From an uncultured Clostridia bacterium (GTDB lineage: Bacteria > Bacillota > Clostridia > UBA1381 > UBA9506), in the NCBI GenBank assembly GCA_944393605.1, contig CALYAO010000058.1, positions 1 to 62,054 of the forward strand: a stretch of DNA of 62,054 nt, given 5' to 3'. A program made the position numbers and the translations under genes. Shown piece by piece: positions 2,277 to 10,095 of this stretch (positions are counted from its first letter, which is position 1; each line of letters opens with the position of its first letter). The notes beneath the pieces are model-generated. The model did no database searches, was not told the DNA's origin, and saw nothing but the letters and a program-made list of their open reading frames with translations.

Positions 2277-2867
2277 CTATGGCAGTGCCGTAATCACGGG
2301 CTGAATCTGAATGCCGTCCAGTGCCAGTTTGAGGGTATCTGGGATTTTGGTCATATCCGCCACCAGGGAATTGTGCTTATCAAAGGGGGCATCCTGCCGG
2401 AAGGGCACAAAGAAATAGTGCTTGGCATTTAGGAGCACCCCGATGTTCTGTGCGCTGGCGCCCAGCCCATCGTTGGTGGAAACCGCCACCACCACCGGCT
2501 TTTCGTTGCGCAGGCTGGCCTTGACTGCCATGGTGACGGGCGTATCGGTGATGCCGCCGGCCAGTTTGCCCAGCGTGTTGCCCGTACAGGGCGCGACGAC
2601 GATGGCATCCAGCGGGTCTTTGGGCCCAATGGGCTCCGCCCCCGCAATGGTGGTGATTGCCTCATGCCCCGTCATATGCTCAATCTTGCTCGCAAAGTCA
2701 GCCGCCATGCCAAAGCGTGTGTCAATGGTCGCCGCATTGAAAGACAAGATGGGCACCACGTCTGCGCCCAGCGTCACCAACACCCCAATTTGTTCCACCG
2801 CACTCTTGAAGGTACAAAATGAACCGGTTAGCGCAAAACCAATCGTTTTGCCTGTCAGTTCCATCAT
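2277..2867 (-). CDS. dpaB: Dipicolinate synthase subunit B
   Basis: This is subunit B of dipicolinate synthase (SpoVFB). With DpaA it makes dipicolinic acid from a lysine-pathway intermediate in the sporulating mother cell; dipicolinate then fills the spore core. The 196-residue protein has the flavoprotein-like fold of the family, with the TGSFCTF segment at about 14-20 and VVAPCTGNTLGKLA in the middle. A GGAGGTGAA ribosome-binding site precedes ATG at 2867. This start overlaps the TGA of the dpaA 3' part by four bases (ATGA), so translation is coupled. In the present arrangement dpaB is cut off from the dpaA promoter by the intervening element and by the terminator at 3370-3402. Confidence 0.95.
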   Translation of the reverse strand: MMELTGKTIGFALTGSFCTFKSAVEQIGVLVTLGADVVPILSFNAATIDTRFGMAADFASKIEHMTGHEAITTIAGAEPIGPKDPLDAIVVAPCTGNTLGKLAGGITDTPVTMAVKASLRNEKPVVVAVSTNDGLGASAQNIGVLLNAKHYFFVPFRQDAPFDKHNSLVADMTKIPDTLKLALDGIQIQPVITALP

Positions 2868-3356
2868 TTCACCTCCATTTCGTGGATCATGTTGAGGATG
2901 GTGTCCTTTATGATGTTCCCCGCCGTGTTGGGCGCGACCTTCCCCGGCAGGGACAACGCCCAGATGACGTCCCGGCCAAGCTGCTGTGCCGCCCCAAGGT
3001 CCACCCCGCCCGGCTTGGAGGCAAGATCAATGATGAGTGCATCGGGGCTCACCCGCTCGAGCATCCTGCGGTCTAGGATGGTGGTCGGGATGGTATTAAA
3101 GATCACATCAAACGCGCCTATGTACTCCCCCAGATTTGCCAGATGGACGCCTTCGTAGCCGTATGCGTCAATCCATGCGAGATCCTCATACTTGCGCGCC
3201 TCCACACAAACCCGCGCGTCCAGTGCCTTTAGCTTGTGCGCCAGCGTCTTGGCGACCCGGCCAAAGCCCAGCACCAGGCAGTCCGCGCCGTGCAATGTGA
3301 TGGGCAGCTCCCGCAGGGCGATTTCGATGGCCCCTTCTGCAGTAGGGATCGCATTG
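2864..3356 (-). CDS. dpaA: dpaA 3' part (C-terminal NAD-binding domain), split gene
   Basis: This is the downstream half of dpaA: 163 codons from NAIPTAEG to the TGA at 2864. It matches the C-terminal half of SpoVFA, with the Rossmann segment HGADCLVLGFGR, then NTIPTTIL and LASKPGG. It has no credible start of its own. Upstream in frame there is no ATG or GTG, only an unsupported TTG at 3295, and a TAA lies at about 3406 beyond a terminator. Homology to SpoVFA stops exactly at the 13-bp repeat 3344-3356. The missing first 129 codons are at 9634-10020, on the same strand and in the same frame. Joining the two at the repeat gives VRNAIPTAEGAI, the expected family sequence, and a 292-residue protein (B. 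subtilis SpoVFA is 297). It is therefore not a simple pseudogene. Confidence 0.93.
3344..3356. repeat. att core, right-hand copy (with dpaA 3' part)
   Basis: AGGGATCGCATTG is repeated exactly at 9622-9634. Read on the minus strand as CAATGCGATCCCT, it encodes part of the conserved NAIP motif of DpaA. It is the proposed recombination core at the dpaA 3' junction. The element-side arm ATTGGCG at 3360-3366 mirrors CGCCAAT at 9610-9616. Confidence 0.88.
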
Positions 3357-3369
3357 GCAATTGGCGCAT

Positions 3370-3402
3370 AAAACAGGGCCGCCCAATTGGACGGCCCGTT
3401 TT
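3370..3402 (-). terminator. Terminator at the dpaA 3' end of the element
   Basis: On the minus strand a GC-rich hairpin with an AATT loop is followed by TGTTTT. It lies just after the stop codon of the small hydrophilic-protein gene and before the att core. It should stop element transcripts from reading into the dpaA 3' part and dpaB while the element is in place. Confidence 0.75.
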
Positions 3403-3403
3403 C

Positions 3404-3697
3404 TTATACCGGCTTTGCCTTCTCTTTGCCCGATTTCGCCTTGCCCTGGATCTCCGGAACAGGCGTCACGTCATTTTTGGGCGTATGCACATTGTGGTTG
3501 CGCCCGCCGTGGATGTCCCCCGGCTTGTAGCGTCGCATGCCTTGTTTTGCCATTACCGTTTCCTCCTCGTGTTGGGCCCCAGTGCCTGTTTTTTTGCTGT
3601 TCGGCCCTTGATTTTGGTTTTTGACCTGTCCGCTGTCCTCCTGGTTGGAGCTCTCAAGGCTCACCCGGCCGTTGTAGTCTGTCTTTTTGTCTGCCAT
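3404..3697 (-). CDS. Small hydrophilic protein, unknown function
   Basis: A 97-residue protein, very rich in Lys, Gln, Asn and Gly, with no predicted membrane segment or cysteine motif; it is probably largely disordered. ATG at 3697 is chosen because AGGAG sits six bases upstream. The start overlaps the end of the tocopherol-cyclase-like gene by 44 bases, so the two are probably co-transcribed. I do not recognise the family. It is the last gene of the dpaA element and is followed by an intrinsic terminator. Confidence 0.65.
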   Translation of the reverse strand: MADKKTDYNGRVSLESSNQEDSGQVKNQNQGPNSKKTGTGAQHEEETVMAKQGMRRYKPGDIHGGRNHNVHTPKNDVTPVPEIQGKAKSGKEKAKPV

Positions 3698-4613
3698 TTT
3701 TTCTCCTTTCTGTGTCGCCGTTCTCCGACAAATGGTACTCAAAGCCCGCATGGGGGCTGGTCAAATCAAACACCAGCCGGCCCTTCTCATATAACACGTA
3801 CCGCACGGTGCTGGCCGCACACTCATAGATGGTGCCGCGCATGCTGCCCCGGCTGGGCGCGCGCAGCGGCCGCGGATTGCCAGCTGTCTGCATAACCTGG
3901 AGCCGCATCGTCCCCTGGCACAGCGTCATCCCTTTGGGTCCAAATTCTGTCACATGAGCGCCTCGGTAGGTGGCGATACGGTACTCCCGCCCGCCGTATA
4001 GGATGGCGCAGAGGCACCCGGTAAACCCCAGGCCCGCCATGGGGATGTGTGCCGCGGCAGCGACGATGGCACAGGAATCCGCCCCCGGAAAGACATTGCA
4101 CTGTGTCCAGAGGTATCGTTTGGGAAAGGAGCACCCCCGGTCGGATTCCACGTACCCTCTCCCGCCGTCCAGTGAAAAGCGCTCCCCGTTGATGCAAAGC
4201 TCCCCCGCCAGGTCATGACCCATGCTCTGGACGCCATGGCGGCACTGCATATGCGGCACCCACCGAAAGGGGCCCATGATGTCACGGGGCAGCGGACAAA
4301 AGCCCCGATAGGACAGGTCACCCGTCACCGTGAGCGCCGGATGCGCCACCGCGAGATGGCACCCCGTATCCGAAAACCAGCTGTCCCCCAGCCGCACAAA
4401 CAACCGGTCTTTTTGTGCTGAGAAATCTTGTGCGGCATAGGGAACATGGTAGGATGCGTCATCCGTGATGAGCTGCAGGGATGCCGATTTTTGTCCCTGT
4501 TCGTCGATGTGGTAGGCCGGGATAAACGCAAGCGTATGATCCCCCGCCTGACACTTGACGTACCACCCCTCAAAGTATGCCCGGCGCCGGCGGGCCCCAT
4601 GAAAGCTACGCAC
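3654..4613 (-). CDS. Tocopherol-cyclase-like protein
   Basis: The 319-residue protein has hallmarks of the tocopherol cyclase-like family (PF14249): YFEGWYVK near residue 13, and GYVESDRGCSFPKRYLWTQ in the middle. Bacterial members are beta-barrel, lipocalin-like proteins of unknown substrate; cyclase activity is proven only for plant and cyanobacterial enzymes. It overlaps the upstream FAD/Rieske gene by eight bases and the downstream small gene by 44, so the three form one operon inside the dpaA element. A role with the neighbouring oxidoreductase on a hydrophobic substrate is possible but not shown. Confidence 0.8.
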   Translation of the reverse strand: MRSFHGARRRRAYFEGWYVKCQAGDHTLAFIPAYHIDEQGQKSASLQLITDDASYHVPYAAQDFSAQKDRLFVRLGDSWFSDTGCHLAVAHPALTVTGDLSYRGFCPLPRDIMGPFRWVPHMQCRHGVQSMGHDLAGELCINGERFSLDGGRGYVESDRGCSFPKRYLWTQCNVFPGADSCAIVAAAAHIPMAGLGFTGCLCAILYGGREYRIATYRGAHVTEFGPKGMTLCQGTMRLQVMQTAGNPRPLRAPSRGSMRGTIYECAASTVRYVLYEKGRLVFDLTSPHAGFEYHLSENGDTERRKNGRQKDRLQRPGEP

Positions 4614-6045
4614 GATCCAAGTCCTCCATGGCGGGATTGTCTAAAAGCTGCCCCGTGTGGTCAAAGCGGGAGCCATGACAGGGGCAGTCCCAGCTGCGTT
4701 CATCGGGGTTCCACTCCAGCTGGCACCCCAAATGGGGGCACTGGGCGGACACCACAAACACCTCTCCGCTGTCATCCTTATACACGCCCACCTTTTGTCC
4801 CTCCACCTCCACGATGCCGCCATGCCCACTTGGCAGGTCGTCTGCCAGTCCGCGCGGCAGCCCCAAGAAGCCGCGCGCGAGCCCCTTGACCGACTGCTTG
4901 CCATCCGCCCACAGCGCCTTGGCGGATGCGGCGAGGTGAAACCGATGGGGTGAGAACACATCCGCATAGGGCGGCCGTTTGCCCGCCAGCTCCTCGGACA
5001 GCAGCTGGGCCGCCACCATGGAGGTGGTCATGCCCCACTTTTGAAAGCCCGTCGCGACGTATAGGCTTTGGGTGTCCTCCGCATATTGCCCGATATAGGG
5101 GATGCCATCCAGCGGGATGCAGTCCTGTGCGGGCCACTGGGCCGCGACGCGGGCACCCGGATAATACTGGGATGCGGCATCTTGAAGCGCCCGGTATTTG
5201 CCGCCCGCCGAATTTTCCCCTGTGCGGTGCTGACTGCCGCCGAACAGGAGCAGACCGTCATATTCCCGGAAGGAGTACCCGTCCGGCTCTACCCCCAGGT
5301 ACATCCCATGGAGCACCGGCGCCCCTTGGAGCGCCAAGACATAGGAGCGCTCCTGGTGCATGCGCAGAAAGTAGTAACCCGGCACATTGATGAAGGGGTA
5401 ATGGGTCGCCATGACGACCGCCTTGGCCGTCACAGTGCCGCCGTCGGTCTCCACGCGGTTTTCGTGGACAGCACGCGCCATGGTGCGCTCATACACCGTG
5501 AGCTTGTCTGCCACAGCGGCCAAAAATGCCAATGGCTGAAACTGCGCCTGGTTGTCAAACCGCAAGGCACCCGCCACCGGGAAGGGAAGCTCGGTGTCCT
5601 GCGTGAAAGCGGCCGAAAACCCCAGTTTCTTTGCCGCTTCCAGTTCCTGCTGCAGGGGTGCTGCATCCTGTGTGGCATAGAGATAGGCGGGCCGCCGGGA
5701 AAACCCGCAGTCAATGCCCAGCTCCCCTATCAGCGCCTCAAATTGGTCGATGGCCTGCCGGTTCGCCTCCGCATACTGTCGGGCGGCATGCGGGCCGATC
5801 TTCTCCAGCAGCATCCCATACCGCAGGGCATGCTGGGCGGTGATTTTGGCGGTGGTGTTTTTGGTCTGCCCGCACCCGACGCGCCCCGCCTCCAGCACCA
5901 CCACATCCTGCCCCTTCTGCTGCAAATAATAGGCGGTGAGAATCCCCGCCATGCCGCCGCCGATGACGCAGACGTCCGTTTGGATATCCTTGCCAAGCGG
6001 CTCCCGTTCGGGCAAGGTCACGCCCGTTTCCCAAATAGAACCCAT
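4606..6045 (-). CDS. FAD-dependent oxidoreductase with C-terminal Rieske domain
   Basis: The 479-residue protein begins with a DAO-type FAD domain, with the dinucleotide-binding VIGGGMAGILTAYYL at about 28-42. It ends in a Rieske [2Fe-2S] domain with ligands at about C436, H438, C454 and H457 (CPH...CPCH). This two-domain layout is that of the YhfW family of B. subtilis, whose substrate is unknown. The start is firm: AAAGGAGGAG precedes ATG at 6045. It is the first gene of a three-gene cargo operon in the dpaA element. The Rieske tail ends soon after the second ligand pair but looks complete. Confidence 0.9.
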   Translation of the reverse strand: MGSIWETGVTLPEREPLGKDIQTDVCVIGGGMAGILTAYYLQQKGQDVVVLEAGRVGCGQTKNTTAKITAQHALRYGMLLEKIGPHAARQYAEANRQAIDQFEALIGELGIDCGFSRRPAYLYATQDAAPLQQELEAAKKLGFSAAFTQDTELPFPVAGALRFDNQAQFQPLAFLAAVADKLTVYERTMARAVHENRVETDGGTVTAKAVVMATHYPFINVPGYYFLRMHQERSYVLALQGAPVLHGMYLGVEPDGYSFREYDGLLLFGGSQHRTGENSAGGKYRALQDAASQYYPGARVAAQWPAQDCIPLDGIPYIGQYAEDTQSLYVATGFQKWGMTTSMVAAQLLSEELAGKRPPYADVFSPHRFHLAASAKALWADGKQSVKGLARGFLGLPRGLADDLPSGHGGIVEVEGQKVGVYKDDSGEVFVVSAQCPHLGCQLEWNPDERSWDCPCHGSRFDHTGQLLDNPAMEDLDRA

Positions 6046-6120
6046 TCTGTCTCCTCCTTTGTCTCGCCCATAGTTTGCGCAGATTGCTAAAAAACTATGT
6101 ACCCTGGAAACGGGTCAAGA

Positions 6121-6188
6121 CCACCAGTAAACTGGTGGCTTGTCCAGCCCCTAGAAGGGGCTATTACAGGCTTAACCCCTAAAAGGGG
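6121..6188. repeat. Hairpins at the 3' end of the IS200-like element
   Basis: Three short perfect hairpins occur in tandem: 6121-6138 (CCACCAGT arms), 6146-6162 (AGCCCC arms) and 6176-6188 (CCCC arms), the last one spanning the tnpA stop codon region. Subterminal hairpins of this kind are recognised by single-strand transposases of the IS200/IS605 type. The exact element boundary cannot be set by eye. Confidence 0.5.
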
Positions 6189-6732
6189 CACTGAAAGTTT
6201 GACACCGCATTACCATCTCAGGCAGCCGCTCACGTGCGGCTGTCTTTTTTGCCCACTTGTTCTGGCTACCCGTAAACGGGTCTATATATTCCTTGATGCT
6301 GATTTGATCAGATGCGTAGTCCTCTTCTAGCTGATTCCTGATATACTGCTCTATCGCCTTTTTATTCCTTCCCACCGTATCCACGTAATACCCTCGACAC
6401 CAGAAATGCCTTGAACCATACTTGTACTTCAAATTTGCATGTCTATCAAATATCATCAGCGAACTTTTTCCCTTGAGAAACCCCATGAATTGTGCTATAC
6501 TTAAATATGGTGGAATACTTACCAGCATATGTATATGATCAACACAGGCCTCTGCTTCGATTATTTCAACGCCCTTTTGCTCGCATAATTTGCGCAATAT
6601 TTCCCCAATATCTCGTTTGAGTTGGCCGTAAATCTCTTTCCGCCTGTACTTTGGCGCAAACACGATATGATACTGACAACGGTATTTTGAATGCGCTGTG
6701 CTTTTAATTGCGTTTGTGCTTTTCTTTAACAT
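6172..6732 (-). CDS. tnpA: IS200-family Y1 transposase TnpA
   Basis: A HUH-type single-strand transposase of the IS200/IS605 family. It has the HIH metal-binding motif in VDHIHMLVSIPP at about 64-75 and the candidate catalytic Tyr in KKAIEQYIRNQ at about 127-137. At 186 residues it is longer than the usual 130-155 because of a C-terminal tail. No TnpB or IscB partner is present, as in classical IS200. The ribosome-binding site GGAGG lies in one arm of a long hairpin, the typical IS200 way to keep transposase expression low. The insertion sits within the dpaA element, between cargo genes. Confidence 0.93.
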   Translation of the reverse strand: MLKKSTNAIKSTAHSKYRCQYHIVFAPKYRRKEIYGQLKRDIGEILRKLCEQKGVEIIEAEACVDHIHMLVSIPPYLSIAQFMGFLKGKSSLMIFDRHANLKYKYGSRHFWCRGYYVDTVGRNKKAIEQYIRNQLEEDYASDQISIKEYIDPFTGSQNKWAKKTAARERLPEMVMRCQTFSAPFRG

Positions 6733-6736
6733 TGTT

Positions 6737-6804
6737 AAAAACCTCCATGATATTTTTGGGTAATGCGGCTGCCAAACCGTTACCAGTATATCATGAAGGT
6801 TTTT
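6737..6804 (-). promoter_or_regulatory. Hairpin sequestering the tnpA ribosome-binding site
   Basis: Arms 6737-6753 and 6788-6804 are complementary at 16 of 17 positions. On the minus strand the second arm contains the GGAGG that serves tnpA at 6732. Pairing would hide this site, as the leader hairpin of IS200 does. Confidence 0.7.
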
Positions 6805-6827
6805 CTTATGCTAAAGCTTTCTTTCTT

Positions 6828-6853
6828 CCTCCGGTAGAACCGGAGGTTTTTTT
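6828..6853 (+). terminator. Hairpin with T7 run
   Basis: CCTCCGG, five bases, CCGGAGG, then seven Ts on the plus strand. It may shield tnpA from antisense transcription or mark the outer end of the IS200-like insertion. Confidence 0.5.
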
Positions 6854-6870
6854 CCACGCCTAAAGACGCC

Positions 6871-6908
6871 AAAAAAAAGGGCCGGCGGGAATGCTCCGCC
6901 GGCCCTTT
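6871..6908 (-). terminator. Terminator after the patatin-like gene
   Basis: A strong GC hairpin (AAAGGGCCGGCGG arm, CCGCCGGCCCTTT partner) is followed on the minus strand by eight Ts, 12 bases past the patatin stop codon. Confidence 0.8.
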
Positions 6909-6919
6909 GCGTCTTATTT

Positions 6920-7747
6920 TTACATCTGTGCCAAAAACTGCGCGCCATCCCGTTTCCCCATCTCATATACGGCCATGAGGCGCGGCACCTTGCGTTCAAA
7001 CTTGCCGATTGTAATGGGCTGGCTGGGCGCAATCACCTGCACCGACCCCTCTTGCTCCCGCCGCGCAATCTCCGCGAGCGTCTCGTTGTATACCGTATGC
7101 CGCCGGGCGATGGCATCCGCCACCTTGGGGTAATCCCGGAGCACATGCCGGTATATCCGTTTGCCCACCTGGGGCTTTTTCTGGTATCCCCGGTTGCGCG
7201 TCAGCACCGCGACCACCCGGTCGCACCCATCCGCAAACGCCCGCCGCACGGGAATGGGATCGGTAACGCCGCCGTCCATATACATGCCGCCCCGGAAGGC
7301 CACAGGCGGGGAAAACACGGGCAGGGAGGAGGACGCACGCACGATCGTACAGTCGTGGTCAAGCGCCTCTTTCCCAAAGTATTCCGCCTCCCCCGTCACC
7401 GCATTGGTCACCACAACGCGGTAATCACAGGGATCCTGCAAAAAGGTGTCATAATCATAGGGCTCCAGCCGTTCGGGGATGTCCCCAAAGATAAAGTTCA
7501 TGCCAAACAGCGACCGTTCCCGGAAAAAATTGCCAAGGCTCAGGTATCGTTTGTCCCCGATATAGTTGACATAGGTGCGCAGACCCCGCCCCTTTTGATG
7601 GGATGCAAAGGAAAGTCCGCCCGATGAGCCCGCCGAGACGCCAATGATATAGTCGGGCCGGAACTGGCCCTCTTCCAGCGCATCCAAGACACCAATGGTG
7701 TAAATCCCGCGCATGCCGCCGCCTTCTAATACAAGCCCCGTCTTCAT
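6920..7747 (-). CDS. Patatin-like phospholipase
   Basis: A 275-residue patatin-family acyl hydrolase. It shows the glycine-rich oxyanion motif GGGMRG at 9-14, the nucleophile elbow GVSAG with Ser38, and the catalytic Asp158 in DGG, making the usual Ser-Asp dyad. No signal peptide is seen, so a cytosolic or membrane-face lipase or thioesterase is likely. AGGAGG seven bases before ATG 7747 supports the start. It is cargo of the dpaA element and has its own terminator. Confidence 0.93.
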   Translation of the reverse strand: MKTGLVLEGGGMRGIYTIGVLDALEEGQFRPDYIIGVSAGSSGGLSFASHQKGRGLRTYVNYIGDKRYLSLGNFFRERSLFGMNFIFGDIPERLEPYDYDTFLQDPCDYRVVVTNAVTGEAEYFGKEALDHDCTIVRASSSLPVFSPPVAFRGGMYMDGGVTDPIPVRRAFADGCDRVVAVLTRNRGYQKKPQVGKRIYRHVLRDYPKVADAIARRHTVYNETLAEIARREQEGSVQVIAPSQPITIGKFERKVPRLMAVYEMGKRDGAQFLAQM

Positions 7748-7819
7748 ATGGCTGCCTCCTGTGGTTCTGATTCACTGCTATATGCTCCCATTATACCAAA
7801 CCAAAGGGGCAAATGCAAG

Positions 7820-9331
7820 TCAGGGCACCAGCGTGCAGCTTTGGATGCGGACAGTGTACCGCTCCTTGTAGCCGCTGGCGGTGCATACGACGCGGAAGGT
7901 CCCAGGGATGCCAAACAGCCGGATGCAAAGCGCATCCTCCTGCACCGTGATGGTCTCCACCACCTCCCGAAGCGCGTCAGGGCCCGCCAGCACGCCATCC
8001 ACAGCCTCCGCCGCCCATGCGTCATCGGCCACATCCGCGGCGGTTTCCAGCCACGCCAGTTCCGCATCCACCCGCGCCTTACGGGTCCGCATCTCCTCCC
8101 GGGTCATATCTCCGGCGACATAGGCATCCAGGATCCGTTCCCGCTGGGCCAGCAGCGCCGCATGCTGCCGGGCGGTATCTTCTGCCCCTGCCGCTGCTGC
8201 CGTAAGCTCCGCCACCAGTTCGCCCCGCAGGGCGTCCATGGGCAGGAACAGCCCCAACACATGCCGCACGCAGGCCGACAGCATTCGCTCATTCACCATG
8301 CGCATGGCACAGGTCTTGCCCGGCCGCTTGCCCAGCCGGCATGCGCACCCCCATGCCCGGTATTCCTGCCCGTCCGCGCGGGTCGCCCTGCGCACCGTAA
8401 AGGGAGCGCCGCATGCGCCGCATACCACCTTTCCCGAGCACCAGTAGCGGGCGGAGTGGCGTGTCCCTGTCCGGCCAGCACGTGCATCCAGCTCCGCCTG
8501 CACCGCTTCCCACACCGCCCGTTCCACGATGGCAGGGTGATGATCCCGCAAATAGATCTGATCCGCTTCCTCCCGATTGATCACCTTTTTGTGGGTCAAA
8601 AAATCGGTGGTCACATACTTCCTTTGGCGCAGATCCCCCACATACTTTTCGTTGCGCAGCATCCGCAGCACCATGCTGCCCGACCAGGCCGCCGTATCCG
8701 GCTTGGGCGTTGGGACGCCCGCCTCGGTGAGCTCCCGCGCGATCACAGACGTCCCCTTTCCCTCATACAGGCACATCCCATAGACGCGCCGCACCACCGC
8801 CGCCTGCTCCTCCCGCACAGTCAGCATGCCCTGGTGGGTCGCAAAGCCATAGGTGGTATCGTTGCCGAACACCACGCCCCGCTCCATGGAGCGCCGCTGG
8901 CCCCACTTCACCCGCTCAGACGTCTTGCGGGACTCCTCCTGCGCCACGCTTGCCATGATGGACAGCCGAAACTCCCCGTCCCCCGCCCGGGTGTCGATAC
9001 CGTCTCCGATGAACACCACGCCGACGCCATACCGCGCCAATTCCCGCGTATATTGCAGGGTGTCCACCGTATTGCGTGCGAACCGGGACACCTCCTTGGT
9101 CAGAATGAGATCAATCTCCCCCGCACGGCAGGCCGACAGCATCCGGCCGAATGCCGCACGGTGTTTCACCGATGTGCCCGACAGGCCTTCATCCGCATAC
9201 ACCGCCACCAGCTCCCAGTCCGCATGCGCCCGGATATACTCCGCAAAATAGGCCCGCTGGCTCGCCAGGGAGTGACGCTGGTCCTCCGAATCGGTGGACA
9301 CCCGACAGTATGCACAAACCCGCAGCTTCAT
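7820..9331 (-). CDS. Large serine recombinase of the dpaA element
   Basis: This 503-residue site-specific recombinase is the proposed excisionase of the element. The N-terminal resolvase domain (about 1-150) contains the catalytic Ser12 in YCRVSTD and the conserved LTKEVSRFARN at about 77-87. A recombinase domain follows (about 155-280), then a zinc ribbon with cysteines at about 304, 307, 329 and 341, a coiled-coil stretch (about 360-425) and a C-terminal tail. This is the layout of SpoIVCA and phage integrases, and it looks full length. AGGAGG sits before ATG 9331. It is codirectional with dpaA and about 300 bp from the att core at 9622-9634. Transcription could come from the dpaA promoter or a nearer one; an intrinsic terminator at 9355-9392 lies just upstream. 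Confidence 0.96.
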   Translation of the reverse strand: MKLRVCAYCRVSTDSEDQRHSLASQRAYFAEYIRAHADWELVAVYADEGLSGTSVKHRAAFGRMLSACRAGEIDLILTKEVSRFARNTVDTLQYTRELARYGVGVVFIGDGIDTRAGDGEFRLSIMASVAQEESRKTSERVKWGQRRSMERGVVFGNDTTYGFATHQGMLTVREEQAAVVRRVYGMCLYEGKGTSVIARELTEAGVPTPKPDTAAWSGSMVLRMLRNEKYVGDLRQRKYVTTDFLTHKKVINREEADQIYLRDHHPAIVERAVWEAVQAELDARAGRTGTRHSARYWCSGKVVCGACGAPFTVRRATRADGQEYRAWGCACRLGKRPGKTCAMRMVNERMLSACVRHVLGLFLPMDALRGELVAELTAAAAGAEDTARQHAALLAQRERILDAYVAGDMTREEMRTRKARVDAELAWLETAADVADDAWAAEAVDGVLAGPDALREVVETITVQEDALCIRLFGIPGTFRVVCTASGYKERYTVRIQSCTLVP

Positions 9332-9354
9332 GTTGGCCTCCTTGGGGCAAGCTC

Positions 9355-9392
9355 AAAAAAGCGGCATCCCGCCCCTCGGCGATGCCGCTTTT
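9355..9392 (-). terminator. Terminator between small ORF and recombinase
   Basis: On the minus strand, arms AAAAGCGGCATC and GATGCCGCTTTT (partly paired) are followed by seven Ts. It lies three bases past the stop of the small ORF and before the recombinase ribosome-binding site, so recombinase transcription from upstream would be attenuated. Confidence 0.75.
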
Positions 9393-9395
9393 GTC

Positions 9396-9533
9396 TTATG
9401 TGGTAGGCCGGCCCTTGGTAAGCCGCGCCAGCTGCTGCCCCGTCAGCCGTTTCTGTTGGTACAGCTGCCGCCAGACACCCGTTTTGTACCGCAAAACCAG
9501 TGCCTTTTTCTGTTTTTCCGTCACGCCCTCCAT
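9396..9533 (-). CDS. Small protein next to recombinase (SHOCT-like; possible directionality factor)
   Basis: A 45-residue basic protein between the att core and the recombinase. ATG 9533 is chosen because GGAGGTGAG lies three bases upstream. The pattern YKTGVWRQLYQQKRLTGQQLARL resembles short SHOCT-like helices that often accompany clostridial recombinases; this is a pattern match only. Skin excision in C. difficile needs a small element-encoded directionality factor, so this gene is a candidate for the same job. It could equally be an accessory protein without that role. Confidence 0.55.
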   Translation of the reverse strand: MEGVTEKQKKALVLRYKTGVWRQLYQQKRLTGQQLARLTKGRPTT

Positions 9534-9551
9534 CGGCTCACCTCCACTACC

Positions 9552-9580
9552 ATAATATGGAAGGTCCGGGCTGGCTATGC
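9552..9580 (-). promoter_or_regulatory. Possible mother-cell (sigma-E-like) promoter
   Basis: On the minus strand GCATAGC (9580-9574), 14 bases, then CATATTAT (9559-9552) partly fits the sigma-E pattern GMATATT-N14-CATACAHT. The implied start would fall at or very near the small ORF's ribosome-binding site, which is tight. It is a weak but well-spaced candidate. Confidence 0.25.
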
Positions 9581-9597
9581 GTCCCGAGGACCATTTT

Positions 9598-10020
9598 TCA
9601 TGCCCCAACCGCCAATGCGGCAGGGATCGCATTGCGGACCGTCAATTCCTCCCGTTCAAAATAGTCGAAATAGGTCACGCCATACCGCTGTGCCAACTCA
9701 TCCACATCCGCATCAATCCGCCCCAGAAACAACTTTTGGGACTGGTCCAGCAGTGCAAACAGATCCGCAAACGGGATCTTTTCCCCGTACAGCGACGCAT
9801 TGACGTGCTTGCCGTCCGTTGTACAGGGCAAGGGCAGAATGATATATTCCGCGTCTTGCACTGCCTCCCGCAGCGTCCCTTCCCGCTGAACGCTCCCGGC
9901 AAAGGCCACATCGGGCGAAAACCCAAACACCTTCACCTGATTGCCTTTAAAGGAAAGCTCATTTGCCATCATGACGATCCGGTAGTCGCCGCCAATGACG
10001 GCAAAAGAGTGCGTTGTCAT
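9598..10020 (-). CDS. dpaA: dpaA 5' part (N-terminal domain), split gene
   Basis: This is the upstream half of dipicolinate synthase subunit A. ATG 10020 follows GGGAGGTG. The first 129 residues align with the SpoVFA N-terminal domain: FAVIGGDYR at 6-14, YIILPLP at about 59-65 and YFDYFEREELTVRNAIP leading to the break. After the core the frame runs seven codons into the element and stops at TGA 9598, giving a 140-residue truncated product. The rest of the gene is at 2864-3355. A sigma-K-like promoter lies upstream. As it stands the cell cannot make intact DpaA from this locus unless the element is removed. Confidence 0.93.
   Translation of the reverse strand: MTTHSFAVIGGDYRIVMMANELSFKGNQVKVFGFSPDVAFAGSVQREGTLREAVQDAEYIILPLPCTTDGKHVNASLYGEKIPFADLFALLDQSQKLFLGRIDADVDELAQRYGVTYFDYFEREELTVRNAIPAALAVGA
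9622..9634. repeat. att core, left-hand copy (with dpaA 5' part)
   Basis: This is an exact copy of the 13-bp core at 3344-3356, inside the NAIP codons of the dpaA 5' part. The two copies are 6,278 bp apart. The reading frame of each dpaA half passes through the core in the same phase (codon AAT at 9633-9631 and at 3355-3353), so strand exchange anywhere in the core restores the gene. Confidence 0.88.
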
Positions 10021-10066: not shown

Positions 10067-10095
10067 CATAGTATGAAAAGAGGATGGGGTTCGTG
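10067..10095 (-). promoter_or_regulatory. Possible sigma-K-like promoter of dpaA
   Basis: On the minus strand CAC (10095-10093), 17 bases, then CATACTATG (10075-10067) resembles sigma-K (AC at -35, CATANNNTA at -10). The -10 also fits sigma-E at seven of eight positions. dpaAB is a late mother-cell operon in characterised spore formers, which makes this placement sensible. Confidence 0.4.

Follow-up and report, generated by a model that had tools for sequence, protein, structure and literature searches.

An intervening element with its own serine recombinase splits the dipicolinate synthase gene dpaA in an uncultured Clostridia bacterium and has relatives at the same codons in many gut bacteria

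The contig CALYAO010000058.1 of an uncultured Clostridia bacterium, 62,054 nt in length and hereafter called the window, carries the gene for subunit A of dipicolinate synthase, dpaA (spoVFA), as two halves on one strand with a 6,278-bp element between them. The locus raises the question whether the gene has been lost to a mobile element or is rebuilt when the cell sporulates. The explanation preferred here, which we consider quite probable, is that a compact gene-intervening element comparable to skin, the element of sigK, lies between the halves and would be excised in the mother cell, by which dpaA-dpaB would be put together again. An initial annotation of the window had proposed such a skin-like element, and the proposal was supported by the paired attachment (att) sites, the preserved reading frame, the intact recombinase, the lack of any other dpaA and the recurrence, in dozens of genomes, of this recombinase family at a cut in the same codons.

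The two same-strand halves described in the initial annotation (Table 1) were confirmed by matches to NF006162, the model of dipicolinate synthase subunit A, and to Pfam families. Since the two matches together cover NF006162 with hardly a gap, almost no dpaA residues appear to have been lost or duplicated. Equivalent points in the halves are 6,278 bp apart, with the cut at 9624/3346, and neither half contains an internal stop codon. The 13-bp direct repeat said to bound both halves was recovered by a repeat finder as a 19-nt direct pair, 89 % alike, with a spacing of exactly 6278, and the frame was indeed kept over the joint, which reads LTVRNAIPTAEGAIE across the repeat. In the unexcised state the N-terminal half continues for 11 codons beyond the core to a TGA at 9600-9598, giving a truncated open reading frame (ORF) of 140 amino acids (aa). 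Because dpaB overlaps the stop codon of dpaA, it is likewise separated from the dpaA promoter by the element. No second intact dpaA was found in the assembly of the window's own genome (G000; 2.5 Mb in 97 contigs, 94.8 % complete), the sole extra match being a weak stretch on contig C95 (E 2e-4). As sigK (G000:C44:132623-133279) and spoIVA are both whole, the genome looks like that of a spore former.

Table 1. Features of the split dpaA locus and of the element in the window
Feature	Position	Strand	Remarks
dpaB, intact	2277..2867	-	NF006161 279 bits vs cut-off 156; TIGR02852; overlaps dpaA stop
dpaA 3' half	2864..3355	-	163 codons + stop (2866-2864); NAD-binding domain; NF006162 132-291 (coding 3355-2867)
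attR core CAATGCGATCCCT	3344..3356	-	central dinucleotide CC at 3346-3345
Left attP arm, element side of attR	3350..3378	-	inverted repeat I1; overlaps core
Cargo: 115-aa ORF	3404..3751	-	no family matched in profile searches
Cargo: tocopherol cyclase-like protein	3654..4613	-	PF14249
Cargo: FAD-dependent oxidoreductase, C-terminal Rieske domain	4606..6045	-	PF01266, PF00355
IS200/IS605 transposase within element	6172..6732	-	NF033573 153.7 bits vs cut-off 55; GC content 42 % vs element 59 %
Cargo: patatin-like phospholipase + DUF6363	6920..7747	-	Pfam; no homologue among other elements compared
Large serine recombinase, 503 aa	7820..9331	-	Resolvase + Recombinase + Zn-ribbon; PF00239, PF07508; PHROG 95 integrase; dpaA recombinase clade
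Candidate recombination directionality factor, 45-aa ORF with Shine-Dalgarno	9396..9533	-	similar small ORF upstream in 23/47 loci
Candidate -10 of small-ORF/recombinase operon (CATATTAT)	9552..9559	-	CATA at -45..-18
Right attP arm, element side of attL	9591..9619	-	inverted repeat I1, 79 %; overlaps core region
attL core CAATGCGATCCCT	9622..9634	-	central dinucleotide CC at 9624-9623
dpaA 5' half	9634..10020	-	129 codons; DpaA_N domain; NF006162 3-130, PF16924 2-116/116
Candidate -10 of dpaA (CATACTAT)	10068..10075	-	read from the sequence; sigma type putative

Serine recombinases use a palindromic attP, the two arms of which are parted by integration. The two ends of the element form one such palindromic attP centred on CC. 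Its arms (29 nt, 79 %) were the longest inverted repeat reported by an unguided repeat finder in a 7.3-kb region, and the outer arms, 6.2 kb apart, paired at 17 of 24 positions, a score reached in 0 of 20000 shuffles and by 2 of 50000 random 24-mers from the window. Both cores were resolved in 16 loci cut at the same place, hereafter called site 1 (15 distinct, L112 being a contig of L054); seven more loci with both halves fell outside the att-core pattern and so outside the 16. The attP was palindromic at a shuffle p ≤ 0.004 in 15 of the 16 resolved loci, the exception being L116 (p 0.45), and the joint was in frame in all 16, reading NAxP or, in L084, DAVP, while the length of the shared core repeat ranged from 19 down to 3 bp. 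In relatives without a cut at site 1 the joint reads NA[VI]P[TS]xEGA[ILV] without interruption in all 33 rows, made up of 32 complete genes and of L076, whose cut lies further along at site 3 (four rows of paralogues were excluded), so the empty sites predicted in the initial annotation exist.

The order to which the window belongs was surveyed in 95 genomes, the window's included, at a match threshold of E ≤ 1e-9. Whole-length dpaA was found in 51 genomes and dpaA in pieces in 26, of which 25 passed the threshold and one, G056, had a short piece found at a looser one; six of the 26 are known by a single piece (G022, G032, G056, G066, G075 and G076). The 57 genomes over the dpaA cut-off include seven cut genes and omit the whole-length G025, and G090, which has a complete copy at the end of a contig besides a partial one, was counted as complete. 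When the cuts were placed by refitting with a profile from 20 complete relatives, they fell at three sites: site 1 at NA[VI]PTAEG (13 genomes), site 2 at KPGGVDF (13 genomes) and site 3 at SLPGK (7 genomes), with two cuts in one dpaA in seven genomes (G023, G039, G042, G045, G049, G050 and G054). Inverted arms also occur at the flanks of site 2 (e.g. CCTTATCCAAAT...ATTTGGATAAGG in G055) and of site 3 (e.g. AACTCCAACCGTTT...AAACGGTTGGAGTT in G043). The 13 site-2 recombinases are 37-98 % alike among the matches listed and the three site-3 recombinases 52-56 %, and both are distant from the site-1 recombinases (24-32 %). Each of the three sites has its own recombinase family; that the window's element is one of three families cutting dpaA could not have been seen from the window. 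In gut Clostridia dpaA is repeatedly a target of skin-like elements, a phenomenon broader than one locus.

The loci of the two further families are L052, L055, L062-L067, L070, L072-L081, L106, L115 and L264; in L052 (genome G039) an extra recombinase, 36 % like that of the window, adjoins the last dpaA piece. Elsewhere in the class, G187 and G335 had two dpaA matches each without a strong single one, among 393 genomes with at most five candidates scored per genome.

A contig scan with the site-1 recombinases, in which 80 loci were kept of 452 relatives, showed a dpaA piece within the fetched flank in 43 of the 80, five of them on contigs already counted as G030, G042, G039, G049 and G054. Named site-1 carriers among the others include Flavonifractor plautii ATCC 29863, Flavonifractor sp. 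An10, An100 and An112, Butyricicoccus faecihominis DFI.6.109, Agathobaculum massiliense, A. butyriciproducens DSM 100391, Intestinibacillus massiliensis and Flintibacter muris. dpaA was present solely in pieces in 27 of 28 genomes searched by handle, with the halves in order on one contig in 19, on different contigs in seven and in reversed order in one (G100, Flavonifractor sp. An10). In the 28th genome, of Lactonifactor, dpaA is whole, and the recombinase lies outside the site-1 clade and does not adjoin dpaA.

In a comparison of 99 recombinases, 47 were tied to a site-1 cut, 46 by adjoining a dpaA half and one (L026) by lying on another contig of a split genome, and all 47 fell within a single clade of 50 rows (quick tree; Shimodaira-Hasegawa-like approximate likelihood ratio test, SH-aLRT, 96). 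The site-1 label required 4 changes on the tree compared with a mean of 33.2 after shuffling, and none of 500 shuffles gave a number as low. One clade row without a dpaA tie, L090, comes from a genome with dpaA split at site 1 at the same coordinates as in G064, and no dpaA was found in the genomes of two others, L097 and L128 (contigs of 3.8 and 6.8 kb). The recombinase of L139, on a contig of a Neobacillus metagenome-assembled genome, stands on a long branch at the base of the dpaA clade, with a flank without a dpaA piece. On the tree the window's recombinase stands among those of Butyricicoccaceae and Oscillospiraceae, apart from eight of its own order, and inheritance of the element along with the order was rejected, a clade of the window's and the eight same-order recombinases having a p value of 8.8e-89 in the approximately unbiased test (p-AU). 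The six C-terminal halves (C halves) nearest to the window's all come from its own order. Set against this kinship, the recombinase tree indicates that the element has most likely moved horizontally between lineages.

Whether the split gene is in use was assessed from the ratio of non-synonymous to synonymous substitution rates (dN/dS). Among five split relatives (G039, G042, G046, G049 and G054), dN/dS of the N-terminal half (N half) was 0.019-0.111 in 10 of 10 pairs (dS 0.05-0.21), and that of the C part was 0.044-0.143 in five of six pairs from four of these relatives, the sixth pair lying outside the dS range and the C part of G054 being unclassed. Complete genes at similar distance, from the Flavonifractor neighbourhood, gave 0.155-0.479 for the N part (9 pairs, dS <0.35) and, for the C part, 0.051-0.096 in five pairs and 0.449 in one (dS 0.14-0.37). 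These values show purifying selection on both halves in close split relatives, that is, in genomes other than the window's. Over dS 0.05-0.8, complete genes gave 0.154-0.663 for N (57 pairs) and 0.051-0.569 for C (58 pairs), and the medians of split and complete genes at dS 0.1-1.5 were 0.467 vs 0.456 for N and 0.383 vs 0.385 for C. Near the boundary, a start codon with a Shine-Dalgarno sequence was present for 3 C halves out of 37 (35 distinct; none of the three being the window's). The same test gave 17 of 37 when applied at an interior place as a control, and 23 of 32 for the N halves (28 distinct). The scarcity of start signals supports, but does not prove, the view that the C half is not expressed separately.

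By pattern, 23 of 47 loci have an ORF of 38-54 residues with a Shine-Dalgarno sequence ahead of the recombinase. For the 45-aa ORF of the window, Pfam gave nothing at E ≤ 1 and PHROG nothing at 0.001, and two of its homologues were SHOCT-like at E 0.015 and 0.058, both below the cut-off. Promoters read by sigma-E and sigma-K have the motif CATA as their -10. This motif was found upstream of the dpaA N half in 19 of 32 scanned (28 distinct; shuffle mean 5.4, maximum 13 in 1000), in a scan which misplaced some starts, the window's included, the window's copy not being among the 19. Between -45 and -18 upstream of the small ORF it was found in 17 of 23 (letter-shuffle mean 1.5, maximum 6 in 2000). 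In the Agathobaculum group the promoters of dpaA (GGCGCATAGGATGG, L122) and of the integrase operon (CCGCCGCATAGGAT, L095 and L113) look alike.

According to the preferred explanation, the recombinase would once have integrated a circle carrying attP into an attB consisting of the dpaA codons for the motif NA[VI]PTAEG. Growing cells and the spore chromosome would keep the element, with dpaA split and dpaB apart from its promoter. In a sporulating cell, a late mother-cell sigma factor would turn on the operon of the small ORF and the recombinase, and the recombinase, together with a directionality factor for which the 45-aa protein is a candidate, would recombine attL with attR at the central CC. 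Excision would free a 6,278-bp circle and restore dpaA-dpaB in frame. Dipicolinate would then be made only in the cell that is due to lyse, and the element would be retained in the germ line.

Several results weigh against this explanation. The attP junction of a circle was absent from the assembled contigs of the window's genome, and 19 of the 95 genomes of the order had no dpaA match at E ≤ 1e-9. In G100 the halves lie on one contig and one strand (C10:132375-132770 and 393814-394293, loci L094 and L259) in reverse order and 261 kb apart, so simple excision cannot join them; this order is either a rearrangement, possibly through the element, or an assembly fault. When all pairs with dS 0.05-0.8 are taken, dN/dS of the split N half reaches 0.975 (0.019-0.975, 68 pairs) and that of the split C half spans 0.043-0.776 (95 pairs, one contig counted twice), high values which accompany distance and are read as saturation, and the window's own halves, with a proportion of synonymous differences (pS) of 0.72-0.94 to the nearest, are too diverged for dN/dS. 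The start-signal test of the C halves employs a loose motif, and its search stretch is cut short where stops lie upstream. The small-ORF pattern was devised after examples had been seen, and it misses all 14 rows of the Flavonifractor subclade and matches 5 of 48 recombinases that are not in the clade. The 23 regions in which CATA was sought upstream of the small ORF are partly near-copies, their shuffles preserved letters only, and the sigma type assigned to the CATA promoters is putative.

The rival that survives best, and which we nevertheless regard as unlikely, is an ordinary integrative element that uses dpaA as its attB and leaves occasionally for transfer, without developmental control, most cells forming dipicolinate-free spores or not sporulating. 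It would suit the horizontal movement of the recombinase and the gene order of G100, where dpaA may stay unrestored. It would also suit the neighbourhood of F. plautii, where dpaA is split in at least 8 of 99 genomes (a count which leaves out partial matches, possible further cuts, in G512, G517, G533, G547, G549, G573 and G584), compared with 47 of 99 with dpaA over the cut-off and 16 without a match. However, both halves are under purifying selection in close split relatives, CATA occurs before dpaA as well as before the integrase operon, and three recombinase families converge on a single sporulation gene, all of which argues against this rival.

A permanently broken and decaying dpaA, in hosts that no longer sporulate or that obtain dipicolinate by a different route, is very improbable. 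The genomes of the order without a dpaA match, the IS200/IS605 transposase inside the element and the reversed halves of G100 would fit decay, but the window's halves are free of internal stops, dN/dS is low in close split relatives, the att structure is intact, and so are dpaB and spoIVA. That the two halves act as two polypeptides, with no rearrangement of the DNA, is hardly credible: the cut does fall between the DpaA_N and NAD-binding domains, but C halves mostly lack start signals, having them less often than the interior control place, and conservation of the joint extends to the codons of the core. Misassembly of unrelated contigs, for which the 97 contigs of the window's genome and the order in G100 might speak, can practically be dismissed, as the same arrangement occurs in independent assemblies, including those of isolates, in some cases on contigs from hundreds of kb up to 3.2 Mb in length, and the att arms of the window match at both ends.

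The serine recombinase gene that the initial annotation had noticed within the element was confirmed as an intact gene for a protein of 503 aa (Table 1). Inward from the 5' half of dpaA, the gene order is 45-aa ORF, recombinase, patatin-like phospholipase, transposase, FAD/Rieske oxidoreductase, tocopherol cyclase-like protein and 115-aa ORF. The transposase, with its low GC content, is probably a later insertion. Among the seven element proteins only the integrase and the transposase matched PHROGs of integration and excision; the oxidoreductase had two short weak PHROG matches and the remaining four proteins none. No phage structural protein was found in the element by Pfam, NCBI-type family and PHROG searches, and its gene content is not prophage-like, a trait that does not define the skin-like group since gin, the element of gerE, lacks it too. 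A phage origin was rejected, as none of 80 viral contigs kept carried a dpaA piece, the six best recombinases from them being 40-46 % identical to the window's. The recombinase is the only larger gene that recurs between elements: the window's cargo matched no other locus and its transposase one, in a comparison covering up to 9 kb per locus where the locus held one half only. The distance from half to half ranges from about 2.5 kb (L113), 3.2 kb (L122), 3.7 kb (L095) and 3.9 kb (L092) to about 14 kb (L044), 20 kb (G030) and 66 kb (G118).

A second sporulation gene in the window's genome, cotJC for the spore-coat Mn catalase, looks cut twice. It is present in three pieces (profile positions 1-65, 62-151 and 147-198) on three contigs (G000:C44:153694-153885, C22:9019-9249 and C17:81737-81892), with two recombinases on C22, and a fourth match covers profile positions 11-82 (C44:10568-10786). 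In locus L151 (11583-12246) a recombinase from the sister clade of the site-1 (dpaA) recombinases immediately follows cotJA, cotJB and positions 1 to 64 of cotJC, and homologous ORFs occur at like places among L031/L141, L033, L034, L035 and L036, which also have sister-clade recombinases. Pieces of Mn catalase bounded near profile positions 28-30, 62-65 and 150 recur among 61 genomes searched. No report of cotJC cut by a recombinase element was found in the literature search.

With somewhat less assurance than for the element itself, we lean towards a wider proposal, in which small "DNA introns" that move horizontally would find a general niche in the late mother-cell genes of gut Clostridia, three recombinase families each being specialised on its own dpaA motif and the sister clade of the site-1 recombinases standing beside cut cotJC. 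The minimal unit would be an attP, a partner protein of 40-odd residues and a recombinase on a promoter like that of the interrupted gene, so that the element would leave exactly when the gene is needed and stay intact in the spore.

If excision is true, the synthesis of dipicolinate, and hence the heat resistance of the spores of gut commensals, depends on a programmed DNA rearrangement, and an apparently broken dpaA in a genome of this kind can still function. The cultured carriers (F. plautii, Agathobaculum, Butyricicoccus) are suited to the study of mobile DNA turned into a developmental switch, and with three unlike recombinase families on one gene the question why such genes are chosen becomes directly testable. 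The att pairs and compact recombinases also represent a naturally occurring collection of site-specific integrases whose targets are known.

The element shares these features of skin-like elements: it lies in the coding region of a sporulation gene, carries its own serine recombinase, is bounded by a core repeat with att arms, and the frame is restored across the joint. Skin proper and vfbin were rejected as its identity, sigK and spoVFB (dpaB) both being whole. The genes reported as interrupted in the parts of the literature drawn on here, which also form the basis of the comparison below, are sigK, spsM, spoVFB, spoVR, gerE and yabG (PMC5595907, PMC10747680, PMC4191935, PMC6957869, PMC5025042); no report of an intervening element in dpaA/spoVFA was found in the open-licence literature, in agreement with the initial annotation, which knew of none. 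Vfbin of Bacillus weihenstephanensis likewise affects a dipicolinate synthase subunit by a regulated rearrangement in sporulation, but it lies in the gene of the other subunit and is described with phage-related genes (Abe 2013, as cited in PMC10747680, PMC4191935 and PMC6957869). Skin, in sigK of B. subtilis and C. difficile, shares a mother-cell gene as target, a large serine recombinase and att half-sites with inverted repeats, and in C. difficile the recombination directionality factor is encoded within the element, as proposed for the 45-aa ORF, and is controlled by sigma-E and SpoIIID; skin differs in its target, sigK, and in being prophage-like (PMC5025042). Yin, in yabG of Clostridium botulinum, also interrupts a clostridial sporulation gene, with the recombinase behind the 5' part of the gene, and is excised as a circle, whereas it is prophage-like and reported as unique to one strain (PMC10747680). 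Gin, in gerE of B. cereus, resembles the dpaA element in having no phage genes, a serine recombinase, a short end repeat (9 bp) and restoration of the gene, but it is 28.6 kb long with three recombinases, whereas the dpaA elements start at about 2.5 kb and have one (PMC5595907).

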